Part shown: piece by piece, positions 24,834 through 60,726 of the stretch
Layout of the letters: each line of letters opens with the position of its first letter
Position numbering within the stretch: position 1 is the stretch's first letter
Source of the DNA: Ridgeia piscesae
Taxonomy: Eukaryota > Annelida > Polychaeta > Sabellida > Siboglinidae
Direction: 5' to 3'
NCBI GenBank assembly: GCA_025642075.2
Contig: JAODUO010000890.1
Location: forward strand, 62,001-126,000
Length of the DNA: 64,000 nucleotides
Notes under the pieces: model-generated
Database searches by the model: none
Told to the model about the DNA's origin: nothing
What the model saw: the letters and a program-made list of their open reading frames with translations, nothing else
Made by a program: the position numbers and the translations under genes

Positions 24834-24870
24834 AGTCAACATTCTGCAGACAGCACTGGTAACTTTGAAG
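24834..24870 (+). CDS. 37-nt internal exon of the same gene
   Basis: Acceptor GTTATGTTTTCAG, then 37 nt, then donor GAAG|GTGAGT. Entered in phase 0, as required by the end of the 18951-21506 exon, it reads SQHSADSTGNFE and leaves one base (G), so it exits in phase 1. The Ser/Asn/acidic composition continues that of the large exon. The exon is called from splice signals and frame continuity only; a transcript read across 21506/24834 would confirm it. Confidence 0.65.
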
Positions 24871-32302: not shown

Positions 32303-32389
32303 ATGACACATGGGATAATGGTGATAATTACCCGCCATGGCCAGAATTTCTAGAACATTACGATGTCACCGACTGCGACTACGACTCTG
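32303..32389 (+). CDS. 87-nt internal exon, acidic and aromatic, phase 1 to phase 1
   Basis: Acceptor CTGCATTCCTTCGCAG and donor ACTCTG|GTAAAA bound 87 nt. Joined to the G left by the 24834-24870 exon, it reads DDTWDNGDNYPPWPEFLEH, then YDVTDCDYDS, with one base left over. There is no stop in the required frame, and the acidic/aromatic composition differs from random intron. This exit phase is the key for comparing the candidate first exons downstream. The protein family is not recognised. Confidence 0.65.
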
Positions 32390-33221
32390 GTAAAATTCTG
32401 TGTCATTAAAACCGAACACTCTGTGTGCGTTTGATCACCGCTGTCATCACCTGATTACTGCAAAACAGCATACGATATTGTAGCTGCGCAATTGATTGAT
32501 GCTGTTGTTTTTAACCAGATCCGTTTGCCCTCTCGCCGGGCATAGGGAAACCGTCGGGCATAGGGAAGCTGCTTTGGGGATGATTTAGTCCTGCTGGCCA
32601 TTCGCCGGGTGCAATTTCGGGAGCCAGTACGGCACGGCAATTTTGGGGGCTTGTCCCAAGTGACCTGGAGCCCGGGATTGCGGGATAACCTGCGGACATA
32701 TAGAAGCCCCTCCCACCTCAGTGGGGAATATCTGTGGCTTCTCTGTGTCAGTAAACAGGTTTATCAAGTCGTGACAGCCGCAGTGGTTCTGGAGTGTAGT
32801 GTACATGTGGCAGCAGTGATGATCTGACCAGATGCAAGGGAGGGAGGTTTGTCACCAATGCATCGCCAGTGCTTTTGTAAACAAAACGGAGGACACCGAT
32901 TGATCATGAAGTGTTTTTGATTGTAACTGATTTCTATATCTAGAGTGCTGCATATCGAAGGGACAATGTGGGTTTTTAGTTAAACTTTTATCACTGCATT
33001 GCTTCACATTGTTCAGTGTTTCGCATGCTTAGCACTTCAGACGTTGAAGTAAGCAACATCCAGGAGGAATTGTAAATTTCCTGAGCACTCGTGAGCTGCC
33101 TCACAATGTTGACAACATCTTGCCAGCGAAGTGCGTTAAAAACTTGTGGTGGAATCTAACACCTCCGGTTGGTGGGTAGACCTGACTTTTATCGTAAGAA
33201 CTATAAGTAACTGGGTCAAAA
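32390..33221 (+). promoter_or_regulatory. Candidate internal promoter before the 33222 exon
   Basis: The stretch is richer in C, G and CpG than neighbouring intron, especially 32515-32700, and lies immediately upstream of an isolated ATG exon. No TATA box at a convincing distance was seen. A promoter is inferred from position and composition only. Confidence 0.35.
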
Positions 33222-33369
33222 ATGGCGGAGTCTTGCGATTCTTCGGACGACGGTGCAAAGTGGTACTATGATTTCAAGTGGAGTCGAAGTCTAAGTGAAC
33301 GGGTGCGGGGAATTCGAGACAGCACTCTGAACCGCGTGTGGAAGAAATTCCGTGAACACAAATTGGCAG
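33222..33369 (+). CDS. Alternative first coding exon 1 (starts MAESCDSSDDG)
   Basis: ATG in the context CAAAAATGG opens a frame of 49 codons plus one base, ending at TTGGCAG|GTAACA. The peptide starts MAESCDSSDDGAKWYYD, continues with a basic/aromatic amphipathic region (KWSRSLSERVRGIRD), and ends KKFREHKLA. The frame stays open past the donor to 33515, but the Lys/Arg/Trp-rich coding character fades after 33369. It ends in phase 1, matching the exit phase of the 32303-32389 exon, so it could splice into the same downstream exon. No homologue was recognised; an independent gene is possible. Confidence 0.65.
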
Positions 33370-35769
33370 GTAACACGCTTTTTACTGTTTGTTCATCTGT
33401 GTTTAATCTTGCGTTAGATCGGTGTCATTTATTAATTTATCGCACAACGTACCATTTAAGTTATAAAAATATGGATATTGTTATAAAATATATGTGTGTT
33501 TTCAGGTACTTGTAGTGTTCTAATTTCCAAAATTATGTCAGCTTTTTATACAGTAATAATTGTATAGTGTAAGTGAGCTATTTTAGCGCTGTTACATCAA
33601 CTATTTGGTGCCAGAAAACAGTTTTTGATCCACACATTTTGTATGTAGGTGAGGTATTGTAAAATGTTCTCTGATGGAATGAACGTATTGGTGACAAAAA
33701 ATATGTAAGAATGTAATACACAATTTAACCCAGTCTATTATATAATTACCCCTACTGGAAAAAAAGCGAATCGATAAAGAGCGCAGTGGTGTAAAGTAGA
33801 AATACTGAGTGCTTTACCAAGCCGCCCTAGGTTTTGTTTACATGTTCTGCATGGATCATTGAGGGGGTAAGGGGCGCTCCAGGTAGCCGACCCCTGGCGT
33901 TTGATATCAAAGGCCTTTGTTGTGCCTGTAGAAATGTAACATGCAATAGAGTTGTATCTGATCTGTGGGCAAGACATCGTCACGGACGCTCCGGTGTCAT
34001 TGTTACGTTTCTTGTCACTACACGTCACCAAATTGAGAAGCAGCTAACAAAAACCGTATAATACAGCTCTTTCATGCCACCTGGGGGGGCAAAGATGAAG
34101 TGATATCACAGGGGAGGGTGTTTTGTATGCCAACAGCCCCACCCACCAAAATCTCCCAGCCACTTTTTGGACCATAATAGCTGACTGTCATTTTTTGTTC
34201 AAGAAAATGGGTGGGGTAATCCTTTCAAATTGGCCTTAATAAATATATCTGTTTTGTGTTGCAACCTTGCAGTAGTTGATATCGTGCTTGTGTTTGCTGA
34301 TAAATATATATGATTGATTAAATGTGTTGTTGATAATCAAAGACAGAATGATAAGCGATCTGTCTCGCATTACGTAACCCCGGGCAGTTTTTGGGGTCCA
34401 TTTCTCTAGGGTTGTATTACTATTCACTGCATTCATTGTGTACATTTTTAAATGTTTAAATAAGGATTTTGTAATATAAATGTAACTTATCCATATTGTT
34501 ATATTAATAAAATTGCTGTTAAAATATTGACACTTACAGATGTGTGTTGTCTTTACACTACATCCCTAGATGTGATACATAGTAGCTGTACAGTTACTGA
34601 GTAATGGGCTTACACAATCTGAATTAAACGACCTTGAGATCATGTACAAATGTAATGTGTTACAAAAATTGAGATATGTTTGCACTGATGGTCTGATTTG
34701 TTATGGTATAAATTCTTTTGCAGAGAACACTTCCAGCTTTTCATTTTTGGTCCACTGGTCATTGCTCAAAAACTACTGAATGGAATTTCTTTCGACTTGG
34801 CACTTGGTTGGTCATAAAGGTGAAACCAATTTTTTTTAACATAACAGTTTTTTGTGGCAATTAAGTTAGTGGGCATTGTATAAAATATTCTAGTGTGACA
34901 AGAAAATTATATTATACAGAGTACACTTGTCAGTTAATTGATTGTAAATAGTATATTATGATAGTCTTATCTGGTGTTGCATTTTTGACCGACATGATAA
35001 GTAGATTTCTTAATACGTGTAATTGACTTTTCTGGAGAAAAATGCGGTCAGGTTATAATTAAAAGTTGATGTGGGCCTCTTATCAACAAAGAAATGTTGA
35101 GATATATTAAATTGGTTCACCCAGTTATATATCAGGTATTTGCCTACCTCTTGACATAAATGTGAGTAACATTTTAACCAACTGACTTAGCAGACTAATG
35201 TTATGCTAACCTAATCATCATGTTTATGCAAGTTACTGGTGTGTGGTTTTATCATTATAATGATTGACACATATATTTAAAGCAATTAAATGTCGCTTAA
35301 AATAGTTTATTAATTTCCTTTAGGGTAATCTCACATCCGATGGCGGTTACATAGGTTATGTTTAATTAATGATATCAAGTTGTAAAAAAATTGATTACGA
35401 TCCTCGTTATGAATATTTGCTTGCGTGTAATCTGTGTGCGTAATTCCCAGTGTAGAAACACACACATGACGTTGAGAATCTGTGTTTGTTGTTGACGTGA
35501 ATTCTAAGCAGACCGTTAAGTGGCGGCTGTGTTGATAATTACAGGTTTCAGTTGATGTCCAGATATCTGTATCTGCTTCTGTTGTCCAGTTGTGCCACTG
35601 GTCAAGCACTGATATGGACATCAAAGCAGTGTTTGTTGAGTAGACATAAGTTATTTACATCCCTTCAAGGCTCGTAGACTGCCGAGATATTTTTCCGTGT
35701 TGGTTTTGGTGTCGTATGGACAATTTCAACATCTCAGTTATTATCTGCGAGACAAACTTTAGTAGGGTA
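33370..35769 (+). other. Long intron, no exon seen
   Basis: AT-rich intronic DNA. Overlapping small open frames on both strands (33738-34061, 34236-34445, 35331-35624) have no splice or start support. Confidence 0.5.
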
Positions 35770-35965
35770 CTGTAGCGCTGTGGTTAGAAAATCAGCTTGT
35801 GAATTAATTTTGTTCATGCTACATCACCTTAGTTCATTCAGCTGTTTAAAGTAGTACCTGGCCTTATTTAATTATGGCATGGGTGTAATAATTGCTACAC
35901 GGCTGAATACTTTCCATCCAAACAGACCTAGTGTTGAAACAGGCTCACCAAGGGTTCAAGCATTA
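35770..35965 (+). mobile_element. Strongly diverged SINE-A copy
   Basis: GTAGCGCTGTGGTTAGAAAA, TTAGTTCATTCAGCTG, AGTAGTACCTGGC, ACACGGCTGAATACTTTCC and AACAGACCTAGTGTTGA match SINE-A blocks in the correct order with many substitutions. Confidence 0.5.
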
Positions 35966-36516
35966 AGAATGGCGAAATATTGTTATTTGTGAGATGGACG
36001 ATCTGAAGATCATTTAATTTAAATTTGTCGGCGAGCTCCTCGAACACATTCCATTCATGAATAGAGAAAGTCAGGTTCTGGTGGTGAAATGTTCTCTCTG
36101 GATATAATTGAAGTGACGGTAGGTTTTGAAATGGTCACCATTTTGCAGAACCCAGAACTATTGGCTGTTGCGGCAAGTGTGTTCTGAGAGGTAAACAGCA
36201 AGGAGCTCTTTGGCAGTGAGTACAAAGATGTGGGAGGTCTTGCTTCACTTGCTCCACTGTGGCCTGAGATCCATGAAACCGGGAAAAACTACTGTTCCAC
36301 TGAGATAAAGGAATCCGAGACTGTGCCCTGGCCCTAGTCAAGCACCCTGGTGGCCCCTTAAAATGGGACACCCAGCTGGATTTGCACTACCCTGCTTTTT
36401 GTCTCTGTGCCCTTAAGACTTTCTGGCACCAGAGCCATTACACCCAGTGATATAAGGTCATAGGTCAACTGTCTGATAGCTCCAGAGGGTAGGTTACACT
36501 TCCCCCTTCAGATAGA
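35966..36516 (+). other. Intronic, no feature seen
   Basis: The open frame on the minus strand at 36135-36371 has neither a recognisable product nor splice sites. Nothing else noted. Confidence 0.45.
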
Positions 36517-36812
36517 CCTTTATGCAGAATAAAATATTTGTCAGTCCAAATATTTCATGTTAGACACATAAGTTAACTGATATACATGCACATACAAACT
36601 AGTCGAGATGTCTGTTATGTTCTGAAATAAACAACTAACACATGCATGACATCTACATTCAAAGCCGACAATATTCATGACTTCTGAAGATCATTTTTAG
36701 TTCCTGATATTGTTACCCGTACACCACAGTCCCATAAAATCCATTCCCATCCCAAATGGGTTTTACCTATCCAAACGACAGGTGGTCGGGTCTGTAGATA
36801 TAGCTATGCCTT
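36517..36812 (-). mobile_element. MITE-like element, copy 3 (minus orientation)
   Basis: Left end CCTTTATGCAGAATAAAATA and right end ATATAGCTATGC. Shared interior: TTAACTGATATACATGCACA, AGTCGAGATGTCTGTTATG, GAAATAAACAACTAACACATG, TTTTACCTATCCAAACGACA. The last block also occurs in copy 1 (TTTTACCTATTCAAATGACA). Confidence 0.65.
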
Positions 36813-36929
36813 CGAACTTAATGAAATATTAATGGCTACCCCAATATGTTTGAATTTGACAAATGTTTTCATTTTGTTTTTGCGTCTTTATATGCATGCT
36901 GTGTGGATGTGTGCACGTGCATGTGTCTA

Positions 36930-37183
36930 TGTAGTCTTTGGACTGTCAACTAAGAGGACCTGCGTTCAAATCCTGTCAGCTGTATATATGAGTACCTGGC
37001 TATAGACAGTGGTGGATATGTGTAGAGCAGCCTTTGCGCATTAATTGTAGCGTCTGGCTGGATGCTTCCCAGAGAAGTTGATATGGTGCCTAATTGAATA
37101 GGTCTGCCAGTGAAGCAAAGTGTATAGCGCTTTGAGCAATCCCGAGGATTGGACACTGCGCTATATAAGAACTTACCTTTTAC
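36930..37183 (+). mobile_element. SINE-A copy with the best-preserved tail
   Basis: The head contains GTCTTTGGACTGTCAACTAA and the B-box-like GTTCAAATCCTG. The body has ATGAGTACCTGGCTATAGAC, GATGCTTCCCAGAGAAGTTG and TTGAATAGGTCTGCCAG. The tail is AGCGCTTTGAGCAATCCCGA followed by TGCGCTATATAAGAACTTAC. It lacks about 60 bp of the 5' body present at 4414. Confidence 0.75.
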
Positions 37184-37713
37184 GTAGTCCTGTGTATGCA
37201 GTACCAACAGAAGAGATGAGAAAGTGATATATACATAACAGATTCTGTTAATTTTGTAATTTCATTGGTACAGCTGTACTGAAGTTCGTTGCAAGTATAC
37301 TATTTACGGACGACGGTTCCAGCGTAAATCTTGCTCACTGATACAGTAATGCGTAATGCGGTACAGAGTACAGAACATAAATACTACTTAAGAGACAATA
37401 GGGCACAGACCACGTCGTTCAAAATAGCACTTGTCTGTTTGTTCATGAATAGAAATTTGTTGGTCCACATAAGTAACATGGCTTATCACGGTTAAAATTT
37501 CAGTAAACAATGATGCATGCAACATAGTGAACTGTTTATTTGAGGAAATTTGAATGTAGATAAAGAGAACCGCATGGGAAAGGGGACATTTTGGCAGACA
37601 AGTGGACATACAATATACTTTGCAGTGGTCAAGTAAACATTCTGTATTATTCCTACCACTGCGATATGTTATTACAACAAAACTGATGTGATTTATGACA
37701 TTATGATTCTGTA
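37184..37713 (+). other. Intronic, no feature seen
   Basis: The open frame on the minus strand at 37388-37720 is not supported by splice sites or composition. Confidence 0.45.
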
Positions 37714-37876
37714 ATCTCACTAAGTCAATTGCATTTCATGGCTGCTTAATTAATTCCTACATAATTTGTTGATTAATACGGCTAAGACCGGCCACTTGAT
37801 AGAAGATACTGAGTATCAAGGAATTATATAAGTATGTGAATTAAGCAGCCATGAAATGCAGTGGACTTAGTGAGAT
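37714..37876. mobile_element. Fold-back MITE with terminal inverted repeats of about 38 bp
   Basis: The left terminus (37714-37752) begins ATCTCACTAAGTCAATTGCA and the right terminus (37839-37876) is its near-perfect reverse complement, ending GTGGACTTAGTGAGAT. Both contain GCATTTCATGGCTGCTTAAT or its complement. About 85 bp of unrelated core lies between. No coding capacity. A target-site duplication could not be fixed by eye. This element shares no ends with the CTTTATGCAG family. Confidence 0.85.
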
Positions 37877-38928
37877 GATATATGAATCATGTACGTACTA
37901 ATGTCATCAATGACATTAATTTTTTCCTGATGTTCCCGGAAAAATTCCCCCATCCATTTGTGTGGAAGGCTTATCCACATGGGATCCATGAAGTTGTTAT
38001 GTTTTGACTTCCTGGAAGAGTCCCTGGTTCCTGGAACAATCCCTACTACTGGACCATGTTTTATTTCTGATTGGTAGCCACCGTAAAATTTTACATGATT
38101 ATAAGAACACCTGTCAGACATTCAAAAGCATCCTGGCACCTGTTGATATCACTTTAAAAAGTCAAATTCTTACATTTACATTAATGGATTTTTTCACCTT
38201 AAAAACTGACAATAAATCTGTTTATTTAATATATGATTAGAATCTCAGGAATTTCTCCACCAAATCCCATCGTGCTATTCTGTCCTGAGAATCCACTTCA
38301 CAGCGCAACACCTCGCTTCCAAAAGACACAATTCAACCGTACAAACCGCACTAGTTCAGTTACAGTCACTTCTTGGCAGGTAAATCCAACAACTTAAATC
38401 GGCCACCTTTTTCTGGCACTACGTTCGTAAATGTGATCTGACCCCGGCAACTAAACTATTTCCAGAGTCTGGGTGTGTTTAGGGTTCGATGTGGGCCCGT
38501 GTTCCCTCTCCGCACCTTGGAATCTATCCCACCTGGCCAGTCCGTCTTCCTAGAACCTTTCTACCCTATTACGTCCTCCCAGGAGCCAATTCGATGCTTG
38601 CTGCTTGGGTCAAGTATTGGGGAAGTTTTTCTTGGAATAAGTAATTGGAGCAAAACGAATTACTACATCAGTGGAAATAATGTACCTGATCACATTACAA
38701 ATCCATGGCGTCGCATTAAGGGGCACTCCTCTGGTTGATTTTTTCGTTCGTCTCATTTCGACTCATCAGCTAAGAGATATTACGTGAAAAATCGTACCCC
38801 GATGGGAAATGTTGGCTCATTTGTAGAACCATTATTTAGATTTTGTGACATTACCAGACACATCATTTGATTATGTCTGACTGGATTATGTGAACATTTA
38901 GTGAAGAACCTGGATAAGAAGTCTGGCT

Positions 38929-38986
<58 letters not shown>

Positions 38987-40195
38987 GTTATATATATATA
39001 TTATATAGTTTATATATAAATTTTGGTTAATCAATCGCTTTAATGTTGGCCGACGTAATGAACAAAACAATTGTTGATGCTATATAAAATTATGCCATCT
39101 TAACCCTTTATTCCCCATGAATTTTTAACCAAATGCAGCCCAATTCCCCACATTGACTACAGAGTTGGCAGTTGCTCAACAACGGCCACTGTGAAACTGA
39201 AGGTCAAACAAACGTACCTCTGGTGTATAGCAAACAGACTTAGGTTTAAAATGATGTAGCCAACAATAATCCCACAGGTGACACAGTGTATATGAGTGGT
39301 TAAAGTGTGGATTATCTTCAAGAGGATTTCGACAGTTTGGGTCATGACGGATCGGTTGTTTGTAAGCACAGGGGATCTAAAGGGCATGTTATTTAACCTG
39401 TTTACATCAAACGACTAGTTGTAGTTATGGTAATCTAGAGTTATATCAGCAAGTTCCTTTACCTCAAAGAATATGAAATATGATTACTTCATGTGTACAT
39501 GTACGTACGTGTAATTGTCACAAACTGAATAAATGTTTTCAATGCAGAATAGCACTGAAGGAGACATTTTGCCAGAACACTTTTTATTCCTTTAGCATTG
39601 TTCTTATATTTCATCACGAAACCACAGCAAGATTTTTTCCATACTGACTTGTCCTGGTAGCCTTCTATGTGAACCAGCCAGCCATCACGTAACCGCAAAT
39701 AACCCCCTATATGAATGAAAGGGGTATTTGTTTGTCACCCCTAAAGTCACCTGTGTAAAACGCTGTGCCATTTTGATGTTATCTCTTAGTTATGAGAACT
39801 GTGACAAATTTTGCCATTATGCCCCTATATCAGACCTCCAGCATGTCACAGAGCATTTGTGAGAGTTTAACCTGTGGGCCAGTTGACTCACAGAGCAGCC
39901 TATTGACCATTGTTGCTAAGTTATCATTGGTAAATGGCACAACTGGTAGTTTACTTGCTAATAGGATGCAAGTACTGTGGTTAACTTTATATTTAGCTAC
40001 TGCAATGTGATGTGTCTGTTTCCACCGTTGTACAGAGTTTGCTTTGTGAGAGCTCTTTTTAGTTGGTCGTCTGTTTCTATGACCCAAAAAATGGCCATGG
40101 CTGTTTACCTTGAGATTCTGTGAGGAACTGTTTCGTCAGGATAAGGAGCATATCAGAAAATTCATCACTAAATAATATATGTTATTAAATTGGGA
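37877..40195 (+). other. Intronic, with a TA tract
   Basis: (TA)n at about 38929-39008, with a TTGTGT interruption. No exon signature was found in the remaining sequence. Confidence 0.5.
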
Positions 40196-40255
40196 GAGCA
40201 TTTTTATATTGGGGACACTATGATGGAGCATTTTTATATTGGGGACACTATGATG
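40196..40255. repeat. Perfect 30-bp tandem duplication
   Basis: Two identical copies of a unit beginning GAGCATTTTTATATTGGGGA and ending CACTATGATG, at 40196-40225 and 40226-40255. Perfect identity suggests a very recent duplication or an assembly artefact. Confidence 0.9.
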
Positions 40256-40299
40256 GACTGGGTCCTGGTTACAAATCCTGGTGTTGACAGTCGAAGACT

Positions 40300-40475
40300 A
40301 ATATACTCAAATATCCACCACTGCCTATAACCAGGTACTCTTACAGATGCGTGAACTGGTCCAGTGTAGAGTAAACAAACTTGCCTGAAGTTAAACATGA
40401 TAGCACAGGATTTGAACCCTTGTTCTTTCTACTGACAGTCTGGAATCCATTCGCTAAGATAAATAGCTCTTAAGG
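40300..40475 (-). mobile_element. SINE-A copy, minus orientation, partial
   Basis: ATCCACCACTGCCTATAACC, AGGTACTCTTACAGATGCGT, GAACTGGTCCAGTGTAGAGT and GGATTTGAACCCTTGTT are the reverse of the SINE-A head and body. The tail half is missing. Confidence 0.65.
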
Positions 40476-42863
40476 AAAATCCATCAATATTTAAAACAGG
40501 TTTTGTTTATTAAATGAGTTGTTTTAAATGCAAATATCCACTGGCGCGTTACAGAGGACACTATTTCCATGACACACCAGTGACAATGTCCCGCTGGCGC
40601 GTCATGGTGTTGACAGTTTTCAGGTATTCTAGGTCACGGTTAAGGATAAAAAAAATATTTAAAGAGCAAAATTGGGATTAACGGCTCTTTAAATCAATGA
40701 AATGGTCCCCTGATGTTCCAACCACTGTGCCACTGTTCGAACGGACAGCGCTACTTCATTTCCCTTCGCTGGGAAGAGGTGGAAGGTTACAAGAAACTTC
40801 TAGGAGGGAAGCTGCGATGTGTCAGAGATGGAGGTAGGGGCTGGGCTGGTTGCCTCCAATGAGGGATAATCAACGTCACAGTCCAATTCGCTCCCAGCTG
40901 TTTCCCATGCCCACCACTGCACTGTGCTCTTTTTGCTTCTGGCCCAATTTGCTTTTTTTCGGCGTTGGTTTTCAAAACTTGGCAAACGACCATCTGTTTC
41001 AGTGATGTTGCACTCGCGAACTAGGCAAATGTCTGCTACGAACACCCACGTCCTGACGGCGTATTAATATCTGGCACTTGACCTTATCACCCGTTTGACA
41101 GGCATCTAACTTGTGAAATGTCAACAGATCAAATAGCAGTGTACAAGCAAGTCTGTGAAGAGTTCTAAGTGATGAGACCACGACATAACGTTACACCATA
41201 ATACCGATTAAAGCTTACAGATCTCTGTTAGATTTAAGGTTGGTTCAGTCTCTAGTGTACAGAGTGACATAAATAGGCCTCTTGTTCCATGATTATTGTT
41301 TCACGGATGATTATTAATTAAATTCATCATATTTGTCTCGCATAACTTAAAAATAAATCATATTTGCCTCTCTTAACTCAACATTAATCAGGTTTGTCTC
41401 TCTTAACTTAAAACAATAAGAAAATGCTGCTCTCTTAACTCAAAAAGCCCTCAGATTAGGCTCTCTTAACTCATAATTAATCAGATTTGGCTCATTGCTC
41501 AAACAAATTTCAGTAATCTCTCGTATGGTATTGCTTCATAATTACTGGCATCTCATTCACATACCATCAACCCTCAAGTAAAATAATCATCTCTCCCCAT
41601 CTTGTACATTATATGGGAAAGGTTATCAGGTGACTTTTTTGTTCCATTGGTAATACAGCTGTTATACATTTTTCATGATGCACACATCATTGCTTGGAAT
41701 ATCACTAATCAGCTGTAGAACCTCTGTCGACTCCTACAGTTTTTTCTCGAGAAGATCAATGTGGGAACTATTCATGATGCTTGTTAGCAAAGCCAGAAGA
41801 CTTTATCGACATTATTGACAGGTCAAAGCATGGGCAGCCAACATAGCTGTTGTAATCCCCAAACATGTCAACCCCGTCTTAATATCTACTATTTTCTTTA
41901 ATGGTGCATATTGAACTACTTTGAAAGGGGTAACCTTTGAAGGGCCACTAATCCAGTTAGGTAAATTGTTACCACGGTTGCATCAGTTCCAAGAAATACT
42001 TCCCCAGGCCATGTTGGAATTGCAGGCGATTTATTCGATGTCATGAACAGGGAAGCAAAAACTGATCTGACCACATTAGCAAACACCCGCAACTACGCTG
42101 CTCTCTGCTGGGGCAATTAGACACCATCTGTGTTCAGTTGTCAACTGCTGTCGTCTTGTTTACGAAGTGCTAACAGTGGTTATGATAAGTTTGTATCAGC
42201 ACTCCACCCAGGGAAGATGACACCTGACATAATCCTCACCCTGACACATGTGGTCTGCGCCCTCCTGCAATAAAACAGTGCAACTGACAGTTTGATGTGC
42301 CAGACTTCCATGAGATTGATGTGAACAGAAGGTCTGCCTCCTAGTGGCAGACGCACTCATCAAAACAGTGGTTGATTCATTGGTCATGTCATTGACTAAA
42401 AATATTACTGTCTGGAATTATGTGGGAGTGAATTGGATAAGATATAAACTAATTTGCCAAACCAAGTAACATAATCCTTTATAATACTGCATTTTGTTTC
42501 GTCAACAAATATTACATAGAAAAGTTTTGACTAATATAATTTAAACACTTGTTATTATGGGTGGCTGAATTAGATTTAAAACATAAATAATGCTGTTAAA
42601 ATTGGTTATTACGTGTAAATACACATTTATTACTTTTGATTACTTATATAACTTAAATATTACACATAAGTATCTTTTATGCATTGAATTGTTTTACTGA
42701 TATATGTATTATACAAATTAGAACAAACACAGATGTGTGTCTCATTAATATGCTGCCCAATTCCACTAAACTTTTGTATATATGTGATGCACGGACATGT
42801 TTAAAATATTTACGTGAAAGCTACACGGAAAAAACAATGACTAAGTATCAGTTTTGTTACAGT

Positions 42864-42866
<3 letters not shown>
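40476..42866 (+). other. Intronic, with a degenerate short repeat at about 41330-41500
   Basis: Between about 41335 and 41500 the words CTCTCTTAACTCA (or GCATAACTT) and AATTAATCAGATTTG recur five or six times at irregular 30-50 bp spacing, an old decayed tandem array. No gene was recognised elsewhere in the stretch. Confidence 0.45.
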
Positions 42867-42925
<59 letters not shown>

Positions 42926-42936
42926 TATAGTATATA

Positions 42937-42980
<44 letters not shown>
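42867..42980. repeat. (TA)n microsatellite
   Basis: Two long TA tracts separated by a short AAATATATAGTATATATATT-type interruption. Open frames rich in Ile/Tyr across it are artefacts. Confidence 0.95.
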
Positions 42981-42981
<1 letters not shown>

Positions 42982-47857: not shown

Positions 47858-47912
47858 ACACACGCACGCATGCACGCACGCATGCACGCACGCACGCACG
47901 CACGCACACAGT
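47858..47912. repeat. (CGCA)n tetranucleotide microsatellite
   Basis: ACGCACGCATGC-type units, nearly perfect for about 50 bp. The Arg/Ala/Cys/Val open frame on the minus strand crosses it. Confidence 0.9.
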
Positions 47913-49953: not shown

Positions 49954-49969
49954 CTGCTGACGTCAGCAG
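49944..49969. promoter_or_regulatory. Perfect 16-bp palindromic CRE / CRE-type Maf element
   Basis: CTGCTGACGTCAGCAG (49954-49969) is fully palindromic. Its core TGACGTCA is the full cAMP-response element, and TGCTGACGTCAGCA is identical to the published CRE-type Maf recognition element. A second GACGTCA lies at 49944-49950. The pair sits about 340 bp upstream of the candidate small first exon at 50309. Function is inferred from the match and its position. Confidence 0.5.
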
Positions 49970-50308
49970 GCTGATGGATTACAGCAGGGATTGTGTGTGG
50001 ATTACTCTGCTGGGCCGGCGGGGCCCAGGGCTAAGCCTTCTTGGTCACATTCTTACATGTTCCCGGTAAAATCAGTATCAGTGACAGGCAGAAATCAGGA
50101 ATTTTATGTAATCTAGTTTGCCGTTACAGGCCTGTCTCGTCTGTCAGGATACGGGTTGTGGGTTCGGCCTGGCTGATTGTTGGTGTCCCCTTTCATTGGC
50201 GGAGGGCAGGGAGTCGGGGTTTGTGTGGAGGACAGGGGATGTGGTGGGAGTGGGTTCTTCCCGCGGGGTTGGTCACTAAACGAAGGACGAGGGATCGCTG
50301 TCATCCTG

Positions 50309-50342
50309 ATGTTTGCCTGGGCCATTGAGTTGCGGCAGTTTG
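50309..50342 (+). CDS. Weak candidate short first coding exon (MFAWAIELRQF)
   Basis: ATG in context CCTGATGT opens 11 codons plus one base before a good donor (CAGTTTG|GTAAGAAT). It ends in phase 1, like the other candidate first exons. The 300 bp upstream is CpG- and G-rich and includes TTTCATTGGCGG, an inverted CCAAT. The exon is very short and its Kozak context is poor, so the call rests mostly on phase and neighbourhood and may be chance. Confidence 0.25.
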
Positions 50343-51673
50343 GTAAGAATACACCAACATGGTTTCTGTTGTTTACTCCATGTTTTGGGACACCTGGTGG
50401 CTGATACTGTTACTTTTTTGTCGAAATATGAACATTAATAATGAGGTGTTCGTGTGTAAAAGTAACCATTTCCAGTTGTGAAATACTGGGTTTTTTTCTA
50501 CAGTGATTGCACAGTTTGGATGTAATGTTCGATTCTTAATTTTTAAATGTATATTTTTGTAGTAAGGAGTATTTGTTTATTTTGCAACTAAGATTGTGTA
50601 AGGAATATGATTATTTTGCTGTCACCAGCGGGTTCATGTTTTATTTTTAAAATATTCACCTCAAAAAGGGAACGCAATAAAAAGGTGGTTGTAAAATATG
50701 TAAATTGTCGGATTACCTCAGCAAATTTTTTAACAGCACCAGAAGAAACATTTACCTTTATGCTAACTTCGTTTTAACTCATTGCTGACTTTGTATGTTT
50801 TATGTTACAGTTTTATCTACCCCTGTAATTGGCACTGTTTACTCTTGCGGTTTCGACTGCTTTTAATTTGTATAATTTAATTGAATGAGCTAGTCGCACC
50901 ATTGGTTATTCTAAATGATGTGTCCAATTAAATTGTCATCTGTTTGCGAGATTCCTCAGGTCTGAAGTCAAGTTCTGGCACACCATGAATAGTAATGGTG
51001 GTCGTTTATCTTGTCCTGTTTACTTGTTCGCGATAACATGTTCAAATAAACGTCAACTGCCGTTCAGCTACATATTGGAATATGAATAAAGCTTGATCGC
51101 TCACAGTCGAACAGTTTTGATGGGTATTCCATGGTATTTTTTGTATATTTATTCAGTTTACTGTGGACCAGTGGAATGCTGTTCCACGTGATTATGTTGG
51201 CCACACCTGTTCAGATCGACTGGGTCTTCCTGGTGAAATTAAATTCAGGTAGCCTTGCCTTGATCTTGAAAAGAGAACGATGTTTGTAACATTGTAAGTT
51301 GGCCAAAGGGATGATTTATTTAGCCTCATTGGCATCACATCACTGGACATCGGTCACTCTGCTGGACATATTGACATCAGCTGGCCGTGGCACCAATGTC
51401 CACTGTCTTTATCAACTGAGTGGTTTACCTGGTATGACACGATCTACCTGAATCTCACCGGTCAAGGTGGTCAAAGTTTGACGGTGACATCTGTCTACAT
51501 AAACAGGTGATCTGTCACTTGTGGTCAGTGTTGACTTGACCAGTGCAGTCACAGGTAGCCAACTGGTGAGATTCATTGCTGGGTGTAGGAGTGGACACCG
51601 GTGACAGTTGGAATGTGTACACAGACAACCTAAAGCTGTAGACCCAGAAGGTGTCAGGTGTGTTTGAGGCAAC
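50343..51673 (+). other. Intronic; region upstream of the 51674 exon
   Basis: AT-rich until about 51330. The last 340 bp is more balanced in composition and repeatedly contains GGTCA, TGACC and TGGACAT words. It may act as promoter or 5' UTR for the exon at 51674 (inference); no core promoter element was recognised. Confidence 0.35.
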
Positions 51674-51776
51674 ATGGCATCCATGTTTGGACTACCCGAG
51701 TCCCTCGCGACTCCGGATCCTGACGCTGAATTCGATCCAATTCTGGATGTTTTAGCCAAAATTGCAAAGAAGTATG
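51674..51776 (+). CDS. Alternative first coding exon 2 (starts MASMFGLPESL)
   Basis: ATG in the strong context GCAACATGG opens 34 codons plus one base and ends at a consensus donor (AAGTATG|GTAAGT). The peptide starts MASMFGLPESLATPDPDAE and continues FDPILDVLAKIAKKY, a likely amphipathic helix with a basic end. It leaves in phase 1, the phase needed to join the exon that follows 32303-32389. In-frame translation past the donor loses this character. The family is not recognised. Of the isolated exons this one has the best combination of start and donor. Confidence 0.65.
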
Positions 51777-52337
51777 GTAAGTTGATATTTCAGCTGAGTT
51801 GTGTTTGTGTTTTGGATGGATCTGTAATGGTGGGGTTGTATGTCGAAAAGTTCTGTCAATACCAGAATGCAACACAAGGACACTTTGGCAATTGTGTCAC
51901 ATAAATAATGTCCTCTGTAATATCATCACTGTTTTGCATTTAGAAAAAAGCTCCTTAAATTTAATGACAGATTCTGTTTAAAGATGGATTTTCATTAAGA
52001 GCCCAATACTATAATGAAAGGGTTTCCTGGTAGTACAGAAATAAATTCATGGCTCTCAGTGACTCTTCTGAAGGACACAGGCAGTAAAATGAGGTGAATT
52101 AAATTGTAAGAGTTTCAAGTTGGCTGTAGTTGACCTTGGTCAGTAACATTGATGAACCATTCAAATATATCTAAAGATTGCTAAGACTCTTTCCTGTATA
52201 TGACAAGGAGCAAGAAGGAAAACGAAGGGACACAGTTTGGGAAATCATGTTTGGTATTTTTGGGTGCATATTAATAATATAATATTAATAATATTATTAT
52301 CTTTTGAATTTTCAAGGATATGTGTTCCAGACTTGGC

Positions 52338-52338
<1 letters not shown>
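51777..52338 (+). other. Intronic, no feature seen
   Basis: AT-rich, with a short AT palindromic stretch at about 52270-52300 (TAATAATATAATATTAATAA). No exon. Confidence 0.5.
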
Positions 52339-52382
<44 letters not shown>

Positions 52383-52464
52383 AGGGAGGAGGGAGGGAGA
52401 GGAGGGAGGGAGAGGAGGGAGGGAGGGAGGGAGGGAGGGAGGGAGGAGGGGGGGAGAGGGAGAG

Positions 52465-52499
<35 letters not shown>
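52339..52499. repeat. (GA)n / (GGGA)n mirror-type purine tract
   Basis: About 160 bp is pure purine on the + strand: (GA)n, then GGGA and GGA units, then (GA)n again. The two outer GA blocks flank a G-richer centre. Arg/Glu and Ser/Leu frames are artefacts. Confidence 0.95.
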
Positions 52500-52500
<1 letters not shown>

Positions 52501-53839
52501 GATCGGAAATGTTGCTAGTTGACAGAAAATAGAAACAGAAGCACTTAAATAACTTACCTCGCTGGAATGTTTGGGCAGAAATTGAAACTATTTCCTTATC
52601 AGGAGAATGCGACTGAGACCAGCAGTGCAAGGGACTTAGTGACATCACCCTGTTTCAAGACATGATAACGTGTTAGTAAATTAATATCAGCTAAATTGTT
52701 TTGTTCATGGGGTTGTACCTCACTAAGGGTGAATGACACTTGCCACAGGTATCTTTGTGGTGTCACATGGTGTTTGTTATTAATGTGATATTTAGCATTT
52801 GTCGTAATTTATGCTTAGTTGATGTTGTATTGCCAGTTATATGCAAAGACGAACTTGATAAATGGTACAATAATCACATGTACATAAGTACCAGGGGTAG
52901 GTCTTAAAAGTTTGTTTTAAAATCTTGTAAATTTTTACTTGTATAACAAGCAGACATATACAGATTATAACATGAGATATGTTGACAGTTATTTCACTAA
53001 TCTATTGAATAATGCAATGATTTGTAGGAACTTTTGCAATGTTTATTAGACAAAATATTGGCATTTTATAGTTTCTTTTGTGACATGTATCTTGTGTTTT
53101 CTTAATGTAATGTACTACACATACACATCAAGTTGTGAAGTTCATTTTAAGTGAACCCCTCAGACCACATCCACAACCCCCCCCCTTACAGAACACAGTT
53201 TCCAGGATTAGTTTCGAGAGTGAAATGGCGCAGTGTTTCATTACAGGCAGGCAAGGGTATGAGGTATCAAGAATAATTTAAAATGATATAAATGTCGAGC
53301 ATGTAAAAACGCACGAAAGGTGATGTTATCCGGTGCAAGCAGATTGGTGACACCACAAAGATGGTTTCTGGTTACGACAGCGTTTGCTTCAGTTTTACAG
53401 GCGGCTCGAAATCTCAGGACTTCAAATTAATGCGCGGCAAAGTGTGACTTTTCTGTGATTTCCCCTTGCGAGTTATCGCAGCAAGTGTGTAGGATGCCCA
53501 GTGAACTCCTTAGTGAACTAGGAGGAAAAAATCCTCCCTGAAATCGGACCACGTCTTTTCCTGGAATACACAAGATGAGGATGTCTCTCAGCTCTTCGGT
53601 TGGGGACAGCTGAGAGGTAGAAAAACTTGGTGGCACTGGCACTGTCATCTGTTACGCGTGTCATCAAAGTGTCATCTCTGTCGGTGGCTGTCGCTGTCGC
53701 TGGTGTCACCTGTCACTGTTGGAGAATCTTCCCAGGGTTCTTACTTCTATCTCCCGTCCCCACCCACTCTCCCAGTTTAGGATACATTCCCCCCAAGAAT
53801 GTCTTGCTGAGAGATGCCAGGTGACAGCAATCTGAAATA
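52500..53839 (+). other. Intronic, no supported exon
   Basis: A slightly CpG-richer patch at about 53280-53700 contains open frames on both strands with no splice-compatible start. A C-run occurs near 53175. Confidence 0.45.
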
Positions 53840-54372
53840 AGAAAAGTAGTGCCAGGCTGAAAGTTGGTACAGACTGAAAAGTTGTTCCAGACTGAAATGT
53901 GTTGCCAGGCTGAAAAGTGATGGAAGACTGAAAATTGGTGACAGACTAAGAGGTGCCACACTGAAATGTTGTGCTAAGCTGAAATATAGTGCCAGACTGA
54001 AATGTTGTGATAAGCTGAAATATAGTGCCAGACTGAAATGTTATGCTAAGCTGAAATATAGTGCCAGACTGAAATGTTGTGATAAGCTGAAATATAGTGC
54101 CAGACTGAAATGTTATGCTAAGCTGAAATATAGTGCCACACTGAAATGTTGTGCTAAACTGAAATGTAGTGCCACACTGAAATGTTGTGCTAAACTGAAA
54201 TGTAGTGCCACACTGAAATGTTGTGCTAAACTGAAATATAGTGCAAACTGAAATGTTATGCTAAGCTGAAATATAGTGCCACACTGAAATGTTGTGCTAA
54301 ACTGAAATGTAGTGCCACACTGAAATGTTGTGCTAAACTGAAATGTAGTGCCAGACTGAAAGTGAAAATAAT
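53840..54372. repeat. 36-bp minisatellite made of two related 18-mers, with a degenerate leading edge
   Basis: The core unit is near ACTGAAATGTTGTGCTAAGC followed by TGAAATATAGTGCCAG, and each half contains TGAAATRT. Regular units run from about 53965 to 54360. 53840-53965 holds more divergent, irregular copies of the half-unit (GACTGAAAAGTTG, GGCTGAAAAGTGA). Because 36 is a multiple of three, a minus-strand frame of 12-residue repeats stays open; it is not called a gene. Confidence 0.9.
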
Positions 54373-56228
54373 GAAGGAGAGACACTGAACTGAAACATCC
54401 ACAGATGTCAGACCAAATTAAATACTGGACTTAACAAGATGCTGGACTGAAGGAGGAATATGTTGCTGAAGGAGATTTGACACTGAAAGAAATTCACTAG
54501 ATTGAAGAAGAGACTGCGTTCTTACTTTGTTTCAGCCACACCGGCTGTCTCCAAGGCTCTCTCCTTACACAGTCAACTGTTTACAAATACCTCCATGTTT
54601 TAAGTGTGTTGTGTCTCTTGGGTCCACACTTGCTTAGACATGTCTGTCATTTTTAACCACCTGCACTGGACAGGTTCATCTTTAGCCCATGACAGCTATA
54701 TTTGGCAGCAAAGTGTACACACAGGACTTAACATAGCTTGCATTCTTCATTGCATTGTCAAGTTACTGTAGGAGCAAACCTGTAGATAAACCAACTCAAG
54801 TGGCAGCACGCAGACACGCTAATATTGCTGAGTTTTTGTCATTGAAGTAAATGTGTTTACAATTGTGTGTGTAAATTAGGCAGATGTGTGGTTTACAGTG
54901 TTCAAATTACATGACCTTTGACATGAGTGTGTTACCAGGTGGATCTTATGTTCAAATGTAGTGATTCATGTTTTATATATTTGTGAAGTTGTGATCATCT
55001 GTGTGCCACGGTTTGTGGTTAGAGAGAATAAACTTCTGTTCTGTTGCCACAAAGCAGACTGCATTCATTTGAAGGTAGTTTTTTATGAACTTTGACTGGC
55101 GAAGACACACTGCCTGGGAGGAAGGAGTACATTGGCCACAAGGGGATTTCATGTTGTTTGTTATATGAAAACTGAGATGGAAGGACTGTTCGGGGAGAGA
55201 TCTAGCAGGATAGGGAAAGGGCGACTGAGGGGTGGAGGGTAGAATGTGAAATGGCCAGGGAGGAGAGCAGAGGACTGTGAAGAAGGATTTACCTGGGTTG
55301 GATTGGATCTCTGGGAAGAAGCATGGGATGGGAATTGGGCAAAAGTGGGAGTAGAGATGACAGCGGGAAAGGAAGGAAACAAAATAAGTCAGAGACCAGT
55401 CTCACCCGATACAGGGAGAATGAAATTTAAGGTTTTGTCAATTAAGTCCACCTTTGGGTGACTGTATTAGCAGGATTAATTTTGTATATATGATATATGA
55501 CTGTGGTGAATGTAACATACGGTATGTTAATAACAGTGCAAAGCGATACACTTACAACCTTGGTTGATGGTTTTTAAGTATTGTTCAATTAAAACAACAC
55601 CTTTTCCTGGGTTGTCAGGTAAAGTGTCCAGTTAACACACCTTGTCCCGTAGGTGTAAAACACTGAGTCAGGACCCGTGTGTCAATGTAGCTGTGCCTGT
55701 GGCTGTGAGAAGACGTGATGGATGGATACGTATGCGTGTGGGATGTTCCCGCCACTCCTAGCTGTTGTGTGCACAACCTTTCATGTGTCAGTGTGATTGA
55801 GAAGCTCCGTAGCACTGGCGACAACCTCACAAGAAATCCGTCAGCGGTGCTTTGTGAGCAGAGGAAACATTTACCGAAGACATTCTTCTCCGTGAATTCC
55901 ACTTGGAGCAGTTCATAGAGAACGCTTGTCCCGCATTTCGACACCGAGTGTTTTTTTGCGATGTATTTAGTTGCACCGCACTTTATGGTCACCTCCAAAA
56001 TACAGCCACCTTGAGATTAGGATTGAAAATGTTTGACATGTTGGAGTTTTTGCGTGATGACACATGGCTGTGTATGGTGTTTTTCCATTGTTATTATTTT
56101 ATTATTGAAAATGGAACAAAACTGAGGTATTATTCTGTAGTCAGCCCTACAATGGTTGTCGTTATTTATTCTCAAAGTTAATTGTTTACTTGATGCATTA
56201 TTGATAAGGCAGGATATAAATGAATAGT
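54373..56228 (+). other. Intronic, no supported exon
   Basis: A CpG-richer patch at about 55700-55990 is open on both strands. One + frame starts MDGYVCVWDVPATP, but no donor in a convincing phase follows. Left unannotated. Confidence 0.45.
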
Positions 56229-56369
56229 ACGAATGCAGCAAAGTCCACATGTTGGACAAATGTACACGGATGACCTCGCATTGTGTACATGTGACAATAT
56301 TGTACGATTGCAGCAAATTCCACACATGTACATGGATGACCTCGGATTGTGTACATGTGACAAAATTGT
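56229..56369. repeat. Tandem duplication of about 70 bp, two copies
   Basis: Copy 1 (56229-56303) and copy 2 (56304-56369) share ACGAATGCAGCAAAG or ACGATTGCAGCAAAT, ATGGATGACCTCG or ACGGATGACCTCG, and ATTGTGTACATGTGACAA. Copy 2 has a 9-bp deletion near TTGGACAAA. The shared words carry GTACAC/GTGTAC dyads. Confidence 0.8.
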
Positions 56370-56857
56370 AAATGCTCATTATCTATGTTAATGTGCGGAT
56401 GTGTGCCCACATATGTATGGACGCATATATTATGTGTGAATGAGTTGTGTAGGATTGTGATTTATGACGATGTAGGTGGCCCTGATTAGATCACATTATC
56501 CCTCAGGACAGTGCGTGTTTCGCTGACCTACAAGTTATCAAATGGACGCTGCTCTATCTGCATACATTGTTCTGTCGACTGTGTAAGTAATGATTAGTTT
56601 TTGCGCCACTAGTCATTGTGGATGTGACAGGAATGAAAGTTCACTGACGTGGACAAATAAAACAGTACAATGTTGTGATAACTGCTGTCAACACAATGTC
56701 ACTGTTGACACACACAAATGTTTGTGACATTATGTCAAGGATAGTGCAATGATTCTGTGATATACTTTAATTGTAACACATACTTGGGGTTGTTGCCTTC
56801 CTGTTGTCGTCACCCAGGGACGAGGCTGGAATCGATACTGGTGTGGAGAGTAGAGCG
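56370..56857 (+). other. Intronic, no feature seen
   Basis: An ATG frame at 56542 (MDAALSAYIVLST) runs into GTAAGT but is short and its phase does not fit; I treat it as chance. Confidence 0.4.
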
Positions 56858-56960
56858 CGGTGGCATAGGGGTTAGAGCTTCAGCGTCTCAACTTGGGTTC
56901 AAATCCCGTGTTGTAATGTCAAACCTTGGGCAACTGCATTCACGGAAAAAATCATGTGTC
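56858..56960 (+). mobile_element. SINE-A head fragment, well-preserved tRNA-like part
   Basis: GCGGTGGCATAGGGGTTAGA (A-box-like) and GGGTTCAAATCCC (B-box-like) are spaced as in a tRNA gene and followed by TGTCAAACCTTGGGCAACTG, the SINE-A junction. It then breaks off shortly before the MITE at 57023. Confidence 0.65.
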
Positions 56961-57022
56961 AGAACACTGACACGTACACAAAGTTTTTTGAGCTGTTAGG
57001 GTGTATGGATACGTGTACTCGT

Positions 57023-57302
57023 AGCTTTATGCAGAGACCTGTCCACCACCCTTCATTTGAATGGGTAAAATCCAATTTGAAAGCGTAGAAATATCACTTG
57101 GACAGGTAAACAATAAAGACGAAAAAAGATCTTCCAAAATTCTAGGTATTGTCAGTTATGCTTTGAAAATGGGTGTCACATGTGTTTGTAGTTTATTTGA
57201 GTATATAAGTACAATATCAACTGGGTTGCGTGTATGTCATTTGACATGCATGTATCTACCAAAATTGGTTTGACTGGCAAAGATATTATCCTGCATAAAG
57301 CC
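57023..57302 (+). mobile_element. MITE-like element, copy 4, best-preserved termini
   Basis: Left terminus TAGCTTTATGCAGAGACCTG and right terminus TATCCTGCATAAAGCC give an inverted repeat around CTTTATGCAG. The interior shares CACATGTGTTTGTAGTTTAT, ATCAACTGGG and GATATTATCCTGC with copy 2. No coding capacity. The right terminus runs directly into the 47-bp tandem array. Confidence 0.7.
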
Positions 57303-57640
57303 TCATATGTAGTTTTTATATACGTACTGTCATTAAGGTGTTTCGTTGTTGAATAAAGCCCCATATGTACGTACTGTCATTAAGGTATTTCGTTGTTGAA
57401 TAAAGCCCCATATGTACGTACTGTCATTAAGGTATTTCGTTGTTGAATAAAGCCCCATATGTACGTACTGTCATTAAGGTATTTCGTTGTTGAATAAAGC
57501 CCCATATATACGTACTGTCATTAAGGTATTTCGTTGTTGAATAAAGCCCCATATGTACGTACTGTCATTAAGGTATTTCGTTGTTGAATAAAGCCCCATA
57601 TGTACGTACTGTCATTAAGGTATTTCGTTGTTGAATATAA
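57294..57640. repeat. 47-bp tandem array, seven units, starting at the MITE terminus
   Basis: The unit begins CCCATATGTACGTACTGTCA and ends TTCGTTGTTGAATAAAGC, with period 47 (GTTGTTGA recurs every 47 bp from 57345 to 57634). The first unit is longer and diverged; units 2 to 7 are almost identical apart from one ATATATAC variant. The unit start AATAAAGCC resembles the MITE right end GCATAAAGCC. Confidence 0.95.
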
Positions 57641-57800
57641 CTTAATGTACAGGTGCATGTTTTGATGTGTATTTTTTAAATGGTGTAATTATTTCAAAAA
57701 TATTGGCACATAAGAAGTCTCCCCATTGTAGTAATAATAATTCTGATTATTAGCATTATGATTTAACATACCCCGGGTTGGTGTTTTGTCAGGTTAAAAT
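57641..57800 (+). other. Intronic, upstream of the 57801 open frame
   Basis: AT-rich. TGTTTTGTCAG at 57782-57792 looks like an acceptor but is followed by in-frame stops in all three frames before or within the open frame. Confidence 0.45.
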
Positions 57801-57982
57801 GTGGCTTCCGTAGAACTTTTGATAGAAGAAAGACACATAAGTGATGATGACATAATTAACGACTGGTGGAGTGACAACTTTCACAGCTGGACTAACATAG
57901 TTAATTGGAGAACAACAGAATCCTTAATTCGCTTAATTGAGCGTGAACACCTGCTGCAGAGGCTAGCCACAGTGTCCAAAAG
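57801..57982 (+). CDS. Candidate exon without ATG (peptide ASVELLIEERHISDDD)
   Basis: An open frame starting at GTG (57801) encodes ASVELLIEERHISDDDIIND, then WWSDNFHSWTNIVNW and a leucine-rich helix-like end (SLIRLIEREHLLQRLATVSK), to a donor AAAAG|GTCAGT. The composition is strikingly protein-like, with acidic and Trp-rich segments. However, an in-frame TAA lies at 57795 and the nearest ATG (57799) is in another frame: AAAATGTGGCTTCC. Without one TG of the TGTG, the sequence would read AAAATGGCTTCC, a Kozak-perfect start in this frame. It would end in phase 2, unlike the other candidate first exons. Real exon of another transcript, assembly or polymorphic 2-bp indel, or chance: unresolved. 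Confidence 0.35.
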
Positions 57983-59559
57983 GTCAGTAATGACCCTGAC
58001 TGGACACAGGTGTTTGTCCAGCACCTGTGATATGAGGACAGATGTCACCAAAGAATGAGCTGTCACATCAGTTGAACAGGTGGGCGGGAGAAATATGTCA
58101 AGATTTATGACGTCCACACTAACAATGATCCGGCAGTGATAGGCCAGGATGGTGTGGAATAGAATTCGGTCAGATAAAAGGATGATGGATTGGGACTATA
58201 ACAGGGCAAAGAATGATCTGTGACTCCAAAAGAGGTCCAAAAAAACCCAAAAATATTGCATGATGTTTTGACATCATAATAAAAAAATATGTGTAGTTAA
58301 GACATGAAAAAGACGGTTATAAAATGAAAAAAATTGAAACATTATAATAAAAACACCATGATCGAGGAGGGGTGAAATTTTGAACGTGACAGAAAATGTG
58401 TAGAGTTTCTTTGAGATTGTAGACATGCGTTTTGTTTGTTGAGTTTTGTGTACTGAAAGGAATGCTAAGAAAGTGCTATGTGAGATATGGCTTTCCTGTT
58501 TATTGTTCAGCGTACGTAGTGATAATCGTGCATTGCAGGAATTTTTGAAGGCTTTTTTAGCCAAGTAGACACCACAGCTAGATTCATTAGGCGCTGCTTA
58601 AAACAACACAAATATATATTGAATTGTTTGGATTTTTCTGATAGTGTATCATTATGTGTAGCAAAATATTTTATTTTGGTTGGTTGATTGATAAACTGCA
58701 GTGTAATCAGTCACTGTTTTTTTTTATCAGGAGTGACAATTGTACTGTCAAAAGTTAGCATGTCACCAGTCATTAATGTCTTCAGTAGGCTAGAATGTTG
58801 ACTTCCTTGTTGCGTCATAAGTGTAATTTATTTTTCAGTCACATGGTCCATTTCTTATCCAGCCCAGTTAGCCATGACATATTCATATATTGGACAATTG
58901 ACTGTGACTTATAGTAGCAATATAGCTTGAGGTAGAGAGTTAAAACATTAAGCACGTCTATTAAGTCCATGCTAACTGTCTGTTGGTCAAAGTCAAGGAC
59001 ATGTTGAGTTCACTGAATGAACGTTGATTCGTTGCCCTTTCAACGGTCGCATTGCTACGTTTGAATTAAGCATACTTGAAATGCCCTGCATCTAATTAAT
59101 TACTCACAACAACAGTAGGTGTTTACTTAGATAAATGGGGACAGGCCACAGTTAAGACAGTGGTCATCACACTGGACAGTGGAGAAATTGAGAAAAATAT
59201 TATAAAAGTAAATTTTTTTTTTTAATTTGAAAAATGAGTCACCTGGAAGCTGCACACATCCAGATTTGTGGACACCTGCTAACATCAGAGAATCAGAAAG
59301 GCTCATGCTTGGTCAAACGACTAGTGCTACTTGTCAACTAGAGTCAACATTGAAGGAGTAGGCCCTAGGTACACATGCCCTATGGACTGTTACTGATGAT
59401 GTCTAACTAACCGAGGTGAAGTGGCGAGGAAACAGGTATATATCTGTGGCCCAGTTCCCTGCCATTTAGTCACTAAACCCGAGAGTGTCGGCTGTCATTG
59501 TATAGAGGTCTGCACCCGCCCTCTGGAGTCAAACACACACGACAGTTGCCTGGTTACAG
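57983..59559 (+). other. Intronic, no feature seen
   Basis: AT-rich. Open frames on the minus strand at 58274-58564 and elsewhere have no support. Confidence 0.45.
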
Positions 59560-60587
59560 TGTGATATATGCAGCCATCACTCGCATGTTGTGGGACGCCA
59601 CGCCCGTGATGCGAGTACGTACGTAGGTACGTGTGTGTGTGTGCGTTTCCTGCGTCGTAACATCGACAACACTGACAATGACGACGTCGGCTAAAATAAC
59701 CCACGCCGTCTCGTTGCGTTTGTATTTACCGCGTGACACCTGTGTTTAAATAATTACGTCGTTGGCCACCAGTGGGTGGTGATGATTGGCGGACGTCCAC
59801 ACCTGGGTGTTGTCATTGGCGTGGCACTATAGCGACCAGCCGGTGTCGATTAGCATTGATGTGGTTTTCACGTGGCCGCGGTGAAAGTGCGACTGGCGTG
59901 GGCGGTGGATTTTATGCGATTGTTGTGGCATCAGTTGCACGGTCGGCCGACACGGATGCGTTGACGTGTGACAAAATAATGACATTGTCGTTGTGTCGCC
60001 AGATTCGTGCTGCCGTTGTGATTTTACAGTGCCAATGATTCCCGACGTTGCCACCGCCTGCGACCACTTTCCTTCCCGCGATGTTATCGGCAGATCTTTT
60101 GGCGTCTACGGTTACTCTCCGATGGCACATGGGATAATCGCAGCACATCTCATTTCTGCGAGACGGCAACAATGTCTCTAGTGAACAACATCCAACTGAG
60201 GATTATACACGGAGCCGTCCTATCCGCGACGATGTTGACAGTACGTTTTACTCGATACGTGTATTGTGACATTTGTGGGGATTGCAACACAAGAAGCTGA
60301 GTTGCATGACGGTTTTATTGACATTTGTACTGCTCAAGCCTGTGTCTCTCCATCTGATGAAGTTGGCCTTATGGCACGATTTATGATCAAAACACCTCAT
60401 CAGACTGACGGATACACCCACTACAGATGTATGTTCTGAAGTTGTGATTCTCAAAAACGTCGCCGTGATTCAAAATTAGAGCTGGTGATCATATTCCATC
60501 AGTAGTCAACGCAAACATTGCGGGTGAAATGAGCGCCATCTGTGCAGATATTGTCGTCGCAACGATATTGCAACTTTGGTCTTAGCC
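59560..60587 (+). promoter_or_regulatory. CpG-rich block upstream of the 60588 exon, candidate promoter
   Basis: From about 59560 to 60180 the sequence is visibly dense in CpG and C+G relative to everything around it. Two inverted CCAAT words (ATTGG at about 59786 and 59815) occur, along with ACGT words (for example 59617-59632). Overlapping open frames in several phases on both strands are typical of CpG-rich DNA and are not called. Role as promoter or 5' UTR is inferred from composition and position. Confidence 0.4.
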
Positions 60588-60726
60588 ATGGGAGGAGTGT
60601 CTTCAGTTATCCAGTCAACTGGGCAGCTGATTCTAGACAAATTGAGCTGTGCCAGCGCCAACTCTGCAGATTACCCGGATACTGTTGCCAGGTTTCCATG
60701 GCGACAGCAAGTCACAAAGTCACCTG
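60588..60726 (+). CDS. Alternative first coding exon 3, predicted N-myristoylated (MGGVSSVIQ)
   Basis: ATG in an ideal Kozak context (TTAGCCATGGGA) opens 46 codons plus one base and ends at a consensus donor (TCACCTG|GTGAGT). The peptide starts MGGVSSVIQSTGQLILDKL and continues with Ser/Ala/Asn-rich sequence to FPWRQQVTKSP. Gly2 with Ser6 fits the N-myristoyltransferase consensus (Gly at 2, small residue at 6, no Pro at 7), and Cys21 could add a palmitoylation site. It leaves in phase 1, as do the exons at 33222 and 51674. An isoform with this start would be expected at membranes (inference). The family is not recognised. Confidence 0.6.

Follow-up and report, generated by a model that had tools for sequence, protein, structure and literature searches.

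We interpret the window, a stretch of 64,000 bases read on the forward strand, as the 5′ half of a gene for a RhoGAP of the DLC/STARD type, transcribed rightwards, in which several short N-terminal tags would be spliced to one SAM–RhoGAP–START body and which would also produce a long isoform. Judged from the sequence, we put the probability of this reading at roughly 85%. The alternative first exons would sit between a large disordered exon and the first SAM exon, each presumably with its own promoter in the long introns, and each would be spliced, skipping the intervening DNA, to a single phase-1 acceptor at window coordinate 87675. A single SAM–RhoGAP–START body would thereby be given differing short N-terminal tags, and the long isoform would bear an extension of ~890 residues, probably disordered. 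By analogy with the isoforms of human DLC1, the tags may direct the site at which the enzyme acts.

The window corresponds to positions 62001–126000 of a contig, here C890, of a 628-Mb assembly, and 120 kb of DNA downstream of it were read as well. The original prediction had placed a common phase-1 exon somewhere beyond position 64000, and such an exon is found 23.7 kb beyond the window end, at C890:149675–149746 on the + strand (window coordinates 87675–87746). It is the first SAM exon, is entered in phase 1 and has scores of 9.5 for its acceptor and 11.3 for its donor. Because the acceptor is of phase 1, the ATG exons at 33222–33369, 51674–51776 and 60588–60726 all join it in frame; once joined, each of these, and likewise the ATG exon at 50309, reads in frame into EIEALEACTWLRAAGFPQYAQMYE with a Glu at the junction. 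The locus thus holds several coding first exons that share an exit phase, together with a single acceptor that takes this phase. Given that the spurious-looking exon at 50309 also fits the acceptor, agreement of phase is by itself not a strong argument.

The family to which the common exons belong is indicated by a protein search of the joined SAM exons. A peptide comprising the three SAM exons and the start of the next exon matched four PDB sequences at E ≤0.001, all of them from the human tumour suppressors DLC1 or STARD13 (E 7e-31 against DLC1 2dky and 2.4e-26 against STARD13 2h80), and reached 25.2 bits with the Pfam SAM_2 profile, for which the cut-off is 20.5. The exons of C890 follow one another on the + strand at 149675, 155xxx, 162740 and 168280 (SAM onward), 176219 (RhoGAP) and 179749–181148 (START), and the domains are accordingly ordered SAM, RhoGAP, START on one strand. 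The RhoGAP profile matched a single exon at its positions 1–41 of 148 (E 3.4e-5), with 24.2 bits, 0.3 below the Pfam cut-off of 24.5. For the START domain, three exons were joined by eye and the resulting peptide gave E 4.8e-32, above the Pfam cut-off; one exon alone gave E 4.4e-8. A motif search of the + strand of the fetched contig found no vertebrate-like stretch before the SAM domain. RhoGAPs of the DLC/STARD group had been offered in the original prediction as an analogy, with no sequence match noticed, and with SAM, RhoGAP and START exons lying downstream the family turns out to have been the right one. Another multi-promoter family would be PDE4, in which first exons also exit in phase 1, but downstream exons that encode SAM, RhoGAP and START rule out a PDE4-type gene for the common body, and we regard a different family of this kind as extremely improbable.

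Within the window, all five stretches for which a phase-1 exit had been claimed are present: a candidate internal exon at 32303–32389 and four ATG exons on the + strand, at 33222, 50309, 51674 and 60588, which are all open, have a GT directly 3′ and have a length of 1 mod 3. The alternative first exon at 33222–33369 (148 nt, exit phase 1) encodes a tag beginning MAESCDSSDDGAKWYYDFKW, with a net charge of +3 and an amphipathic stretch. The tag of the alternative first exon at 51674–51776 (103 nt, exit phase 1; Kozak 4.0, donor 10.0) begins MASMFGLPESLA and is acidic, with a net charge of −3, and that of the probable alternative first exon at 60588–60726 (139 nt, exit phase 1; donor 10.8) begins MGGVSSVIQSTG, its MGG start matching a myristoylation pattern. 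The ATG exon candidate at 50309–50342 (34 nt, exit phase 1), previously put forward as a weaker fourth first exon, is unsupported despite its in-frame join, with a poor Kozak score of −3.0 and a coding score of −2.8. The exons at 33222, 51674 and 60588 each occur once in a search of the 628-Mb assembly and are therefore unlikely to be repeats. No Pfam hit to the large exon or to the first exons reached a cut-off, PDB searches with the large exon, 33222, 51674 and 60588 gave chance-level matches alone (best E 0.05), and an Rfam scan of the window gave nothing at gathering thresholds. The window also contains tandem repeats, among them a 24-base unit at 240–2056 (~64 copies, open in several frames on both strands) and a 47-base unit at 57317–57637 (6.8 copies, 98% alike).

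Candidate exons were scored by combining splice and start weights with codon preferences learned from the large exon of the window. The top three ATG-to-donor candidates on the + strand of 22601–64000 are 33222 (25.5), 60588 (19.0) and 51674 (15.0). Candidates of at least 14.9 occurred at a mean of 0.025 in 40 order-4 Markov sequences of the same length, and there were none in 40 order-2 sequences. The reverse strand of the same region has one candidate at 21.7 (position 31917), and 51674 has a coding score of just 0.9, with a reverse-strand frame over the same bases reaching 5.8, so the score is to be taken as a guide and not as proof. The reverse-strand candidate spans 31838–31917, resembles a first exon of phase 2 and lies in a CpG-rich stretch. 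Over the whole distance from the large exon to the SAM exon, the + strand has nine first-exon candidates of at least 10; seven of these, the top six among them, exit in phase 1. The reverse strand has four, in phases 2, 1, 0 and 1. The six best include two further + strand, phase-1 candidates past the window, at C890:135397–135433 and C890:139673–139769 (internal ATG at 139706). CpG content looked promising as a promoter mark within the window but is weak against the wider contig background: ranked against 2357 windows of the contig taken as background, 60588 falls within the top 8% and 33222 within the top 26%, with 51674 at the median, and CpG content is no clear marker of the starts.

Conservation between related genomes settles two of the first exons: as far as sequence comparison goes, both 33222 and 51674 have been kept as coding first exons. 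When the frame of 33222 was searched with read-through past its donor, all four candidates obtained were relatives, which share 49, 49, 47 and 42 residues with the 49 that the exon encodes. The two distant relatives (P0008 and P0009) match at 8 read-through residues each, of about 41 and 37 on offer, which means that the similarity to 33222 stops at the donor; it starts at most seven codons upstream of the ATG. The close relatives (P0006 and P0007) still match at 42 and 31 read-through residues, as expected for close kin. A scan of viral contigs gave no relative of 33222. The peptides of 51674 and 60588 were searched end to end as one query, and the three candidates obtained were all relatives of 51674, keeping 34, 32 and 27 of its 34 residues. 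One of them (P0010) is near-identical into the intron (41/42), and another (P0011) has 12 matches of about 15 read-through residues and similarity upstream of the ATG as well, and hence carries little information on the borders of 51674. In the distant relative P0012, with 5 matches of about 19 read-through residues and similarity starting two codons before the ATG, the similarity stops at the donor, as it does in P0008 and P0009, the other two of the three most distant relatives. The joint search gave no relative of 60588, which is a weak negative since the frame is short and the search relies on called open reading frames; on its sequence features, 60588 is probably an alternative first exon too.

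The sizes of the contigs on which these relatives were found bear on whether the exons belong together. To judge from equal contig sizes, P0002 (a relative of the large exon), P0006 (33222) and P0011 (51674) probably lie on one contig of 1,565,804 bases, P0007 and P0010 on one of 479,257 bases, and P0008 and P0012 on one of 932,881 bases. Counterparts of 33222 and 51674 would then be on the same contig in three related genomes, which argues against their opening separate genes that are nested in a long intron, with a common phase that is coincidental. Three exons would share one phase by chance in 1 of 9 cases, but no internal exon 3′ of 33222 or 51674 in the window exceeds the reverse-strand control, and the first unmistakable coding exons that follow on the + strand belong to the DLC gene, with the phase-1 entry that is required. 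We therefore consider nested genes very unlikely and retain a single DLC/STARD-type gene with several first exons as the preferred reading.

The long isoform would be built around a large internal exon at 18951–21506 on the + strand, which is probably disordered, is entered and left in phase 0 and has a donor score of 11.8. Five relatives of this exon were found among 5098 candidates, at 98, 91, 66, 50 and 49% identity, and its conservation stops at its donor. The frame shifts three times, near 19120–19130, 19934–19967 and 20064–20092, where by tblastn the relatives, including one that is 98% identical, read on uninterrupted; these three frame changes are probably errors of the present assembly. 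A hexamer array of GCCTCT (~133 copies, 21589–22374) starts ~80 bases past the donor of the large exon.

Two weak + strand candidates would link the large exon to the common body. The first, a 37-nt exon at 24834–24870 (phase 0 in, phase 1 out), would join the large exon to 32303; its acceptor of 6.8, donor of 12.2 and coding score of −0.4 sum to 18.6, compared with a mean simulated maximum of 19.1. The second, the 87-nt candidate internal exon at 32303–32389 (phase 1 in, phase 1 out), is open solely with a phase-1 entry. Its internal-exon score of 20.6, made up of 8.3 for the acceptor, 4.9 for the donor and 7.4 for coding, stands against controls of up to 21.6 on the reverse strand and a mean of 0.27 candidates of at least 20.5 in 30 simulations. 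Both scores are within the chance range. Joined to the SAM exon, the chain of 18951–21506, 24834–24870 and 32303–32389 is in frame, again with Glu at the junction, and its length agrees with the N-terminal extension of ~890 residues that had been proposed. The long isoform would probably start with an exon at C890:43979–44044, MDDTNDFDGDYKVIEQCLQQTQ, 18.0 kb before the window; this exon is the best upstream candidate (donor 12.8), its phase-0 exit suits a large exon entered in phase 0, and it would add about 22 residues.

With 24834 and 32303 inside the range of simulated scores and 60588 lacking a relative in the joint peptide search, one could take 33222 and 51674 alone to be real and these three to be chance open stretches. 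We find this rather unlikely, given that 60588, at 19.0, compares with a mean of 0.025 candidates of at least 18.9 in the order-4 simulations, is single-copy and is compatible with the SAM frame, and that the chain through 24834 and 32303 is in frame too. The preferred reading, a multi-first-exon gene with a long isoform, takes in all of these exons.

The alternative-promoter arrangement is already known for human DLC1, and by its predicted structure the present gene joins that kind. In PMC5118400, human DLC1 is described as using alternative promoters to make proteins that differ at the N-terminus, and these isoforms seem to differ in location. As in human DLC1, STARD13 (DLC2) and STARD8 (DLC3), the SAM, RhoGAP and START domains come in the same order, and as in human DLC1 and STARD13, the junction lies immediately before IEAxEAC. 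At the junction residue DLC1 has Q and STARD13 has E, as would follow from a split of the same codon. The tags and the large exon matched no PDB sequence with a meaningful E-value, so kinship of the tags with the human tags is not established. Among invertebrates, Drosophila Crossveinless-c (Cv-c) is related to DLC: according to PMC5854602, it has SAM, GAP and START domains and occurs as more than one isoform, some of them named long. The same source describes the N-terminal third of Cv-c as dispensable for activity and its SAM domain as a proposed repressor of the GAP domain, which fits tags that modulate, and do not drive, activity. The present gene resembles Cv-c in its SAM, GAP, START body and its multiple predicted isoforms. 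Literature searches of partial coverage returned nothing on STARD13 isoforms made by alternative promoters with the SAM domain, on DLC1 with STARD13 in a mollusc, or on PDE4 alternative first exons with unique N-termini and promoters.

The finding suggests that the swappable N-terminus of human DLC genes also exists where the DLC SAM exons occupy one locus, as they do in our genome search, with the junction before the SAM domain at the same position as in the human genes. It also indicates that first exons picked out by eye, standing alone in very long introns, can be genuine even with the common exon tens of kilobases off, and the conserved tags are short and directly testable as localisation signals. 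More tentatively, it is possible that this one DLC gene, apparently the sole one in the genome, has at least five first exons with tags of differing chemistry: the myristoylation-like MGG of 60588, the +3 amphipathic tag of 33222, the acidic tag of 51674 and two past the window. If this is true, promoter choice alone would send the same predicted Rho switch-off enzyme to different membranes.
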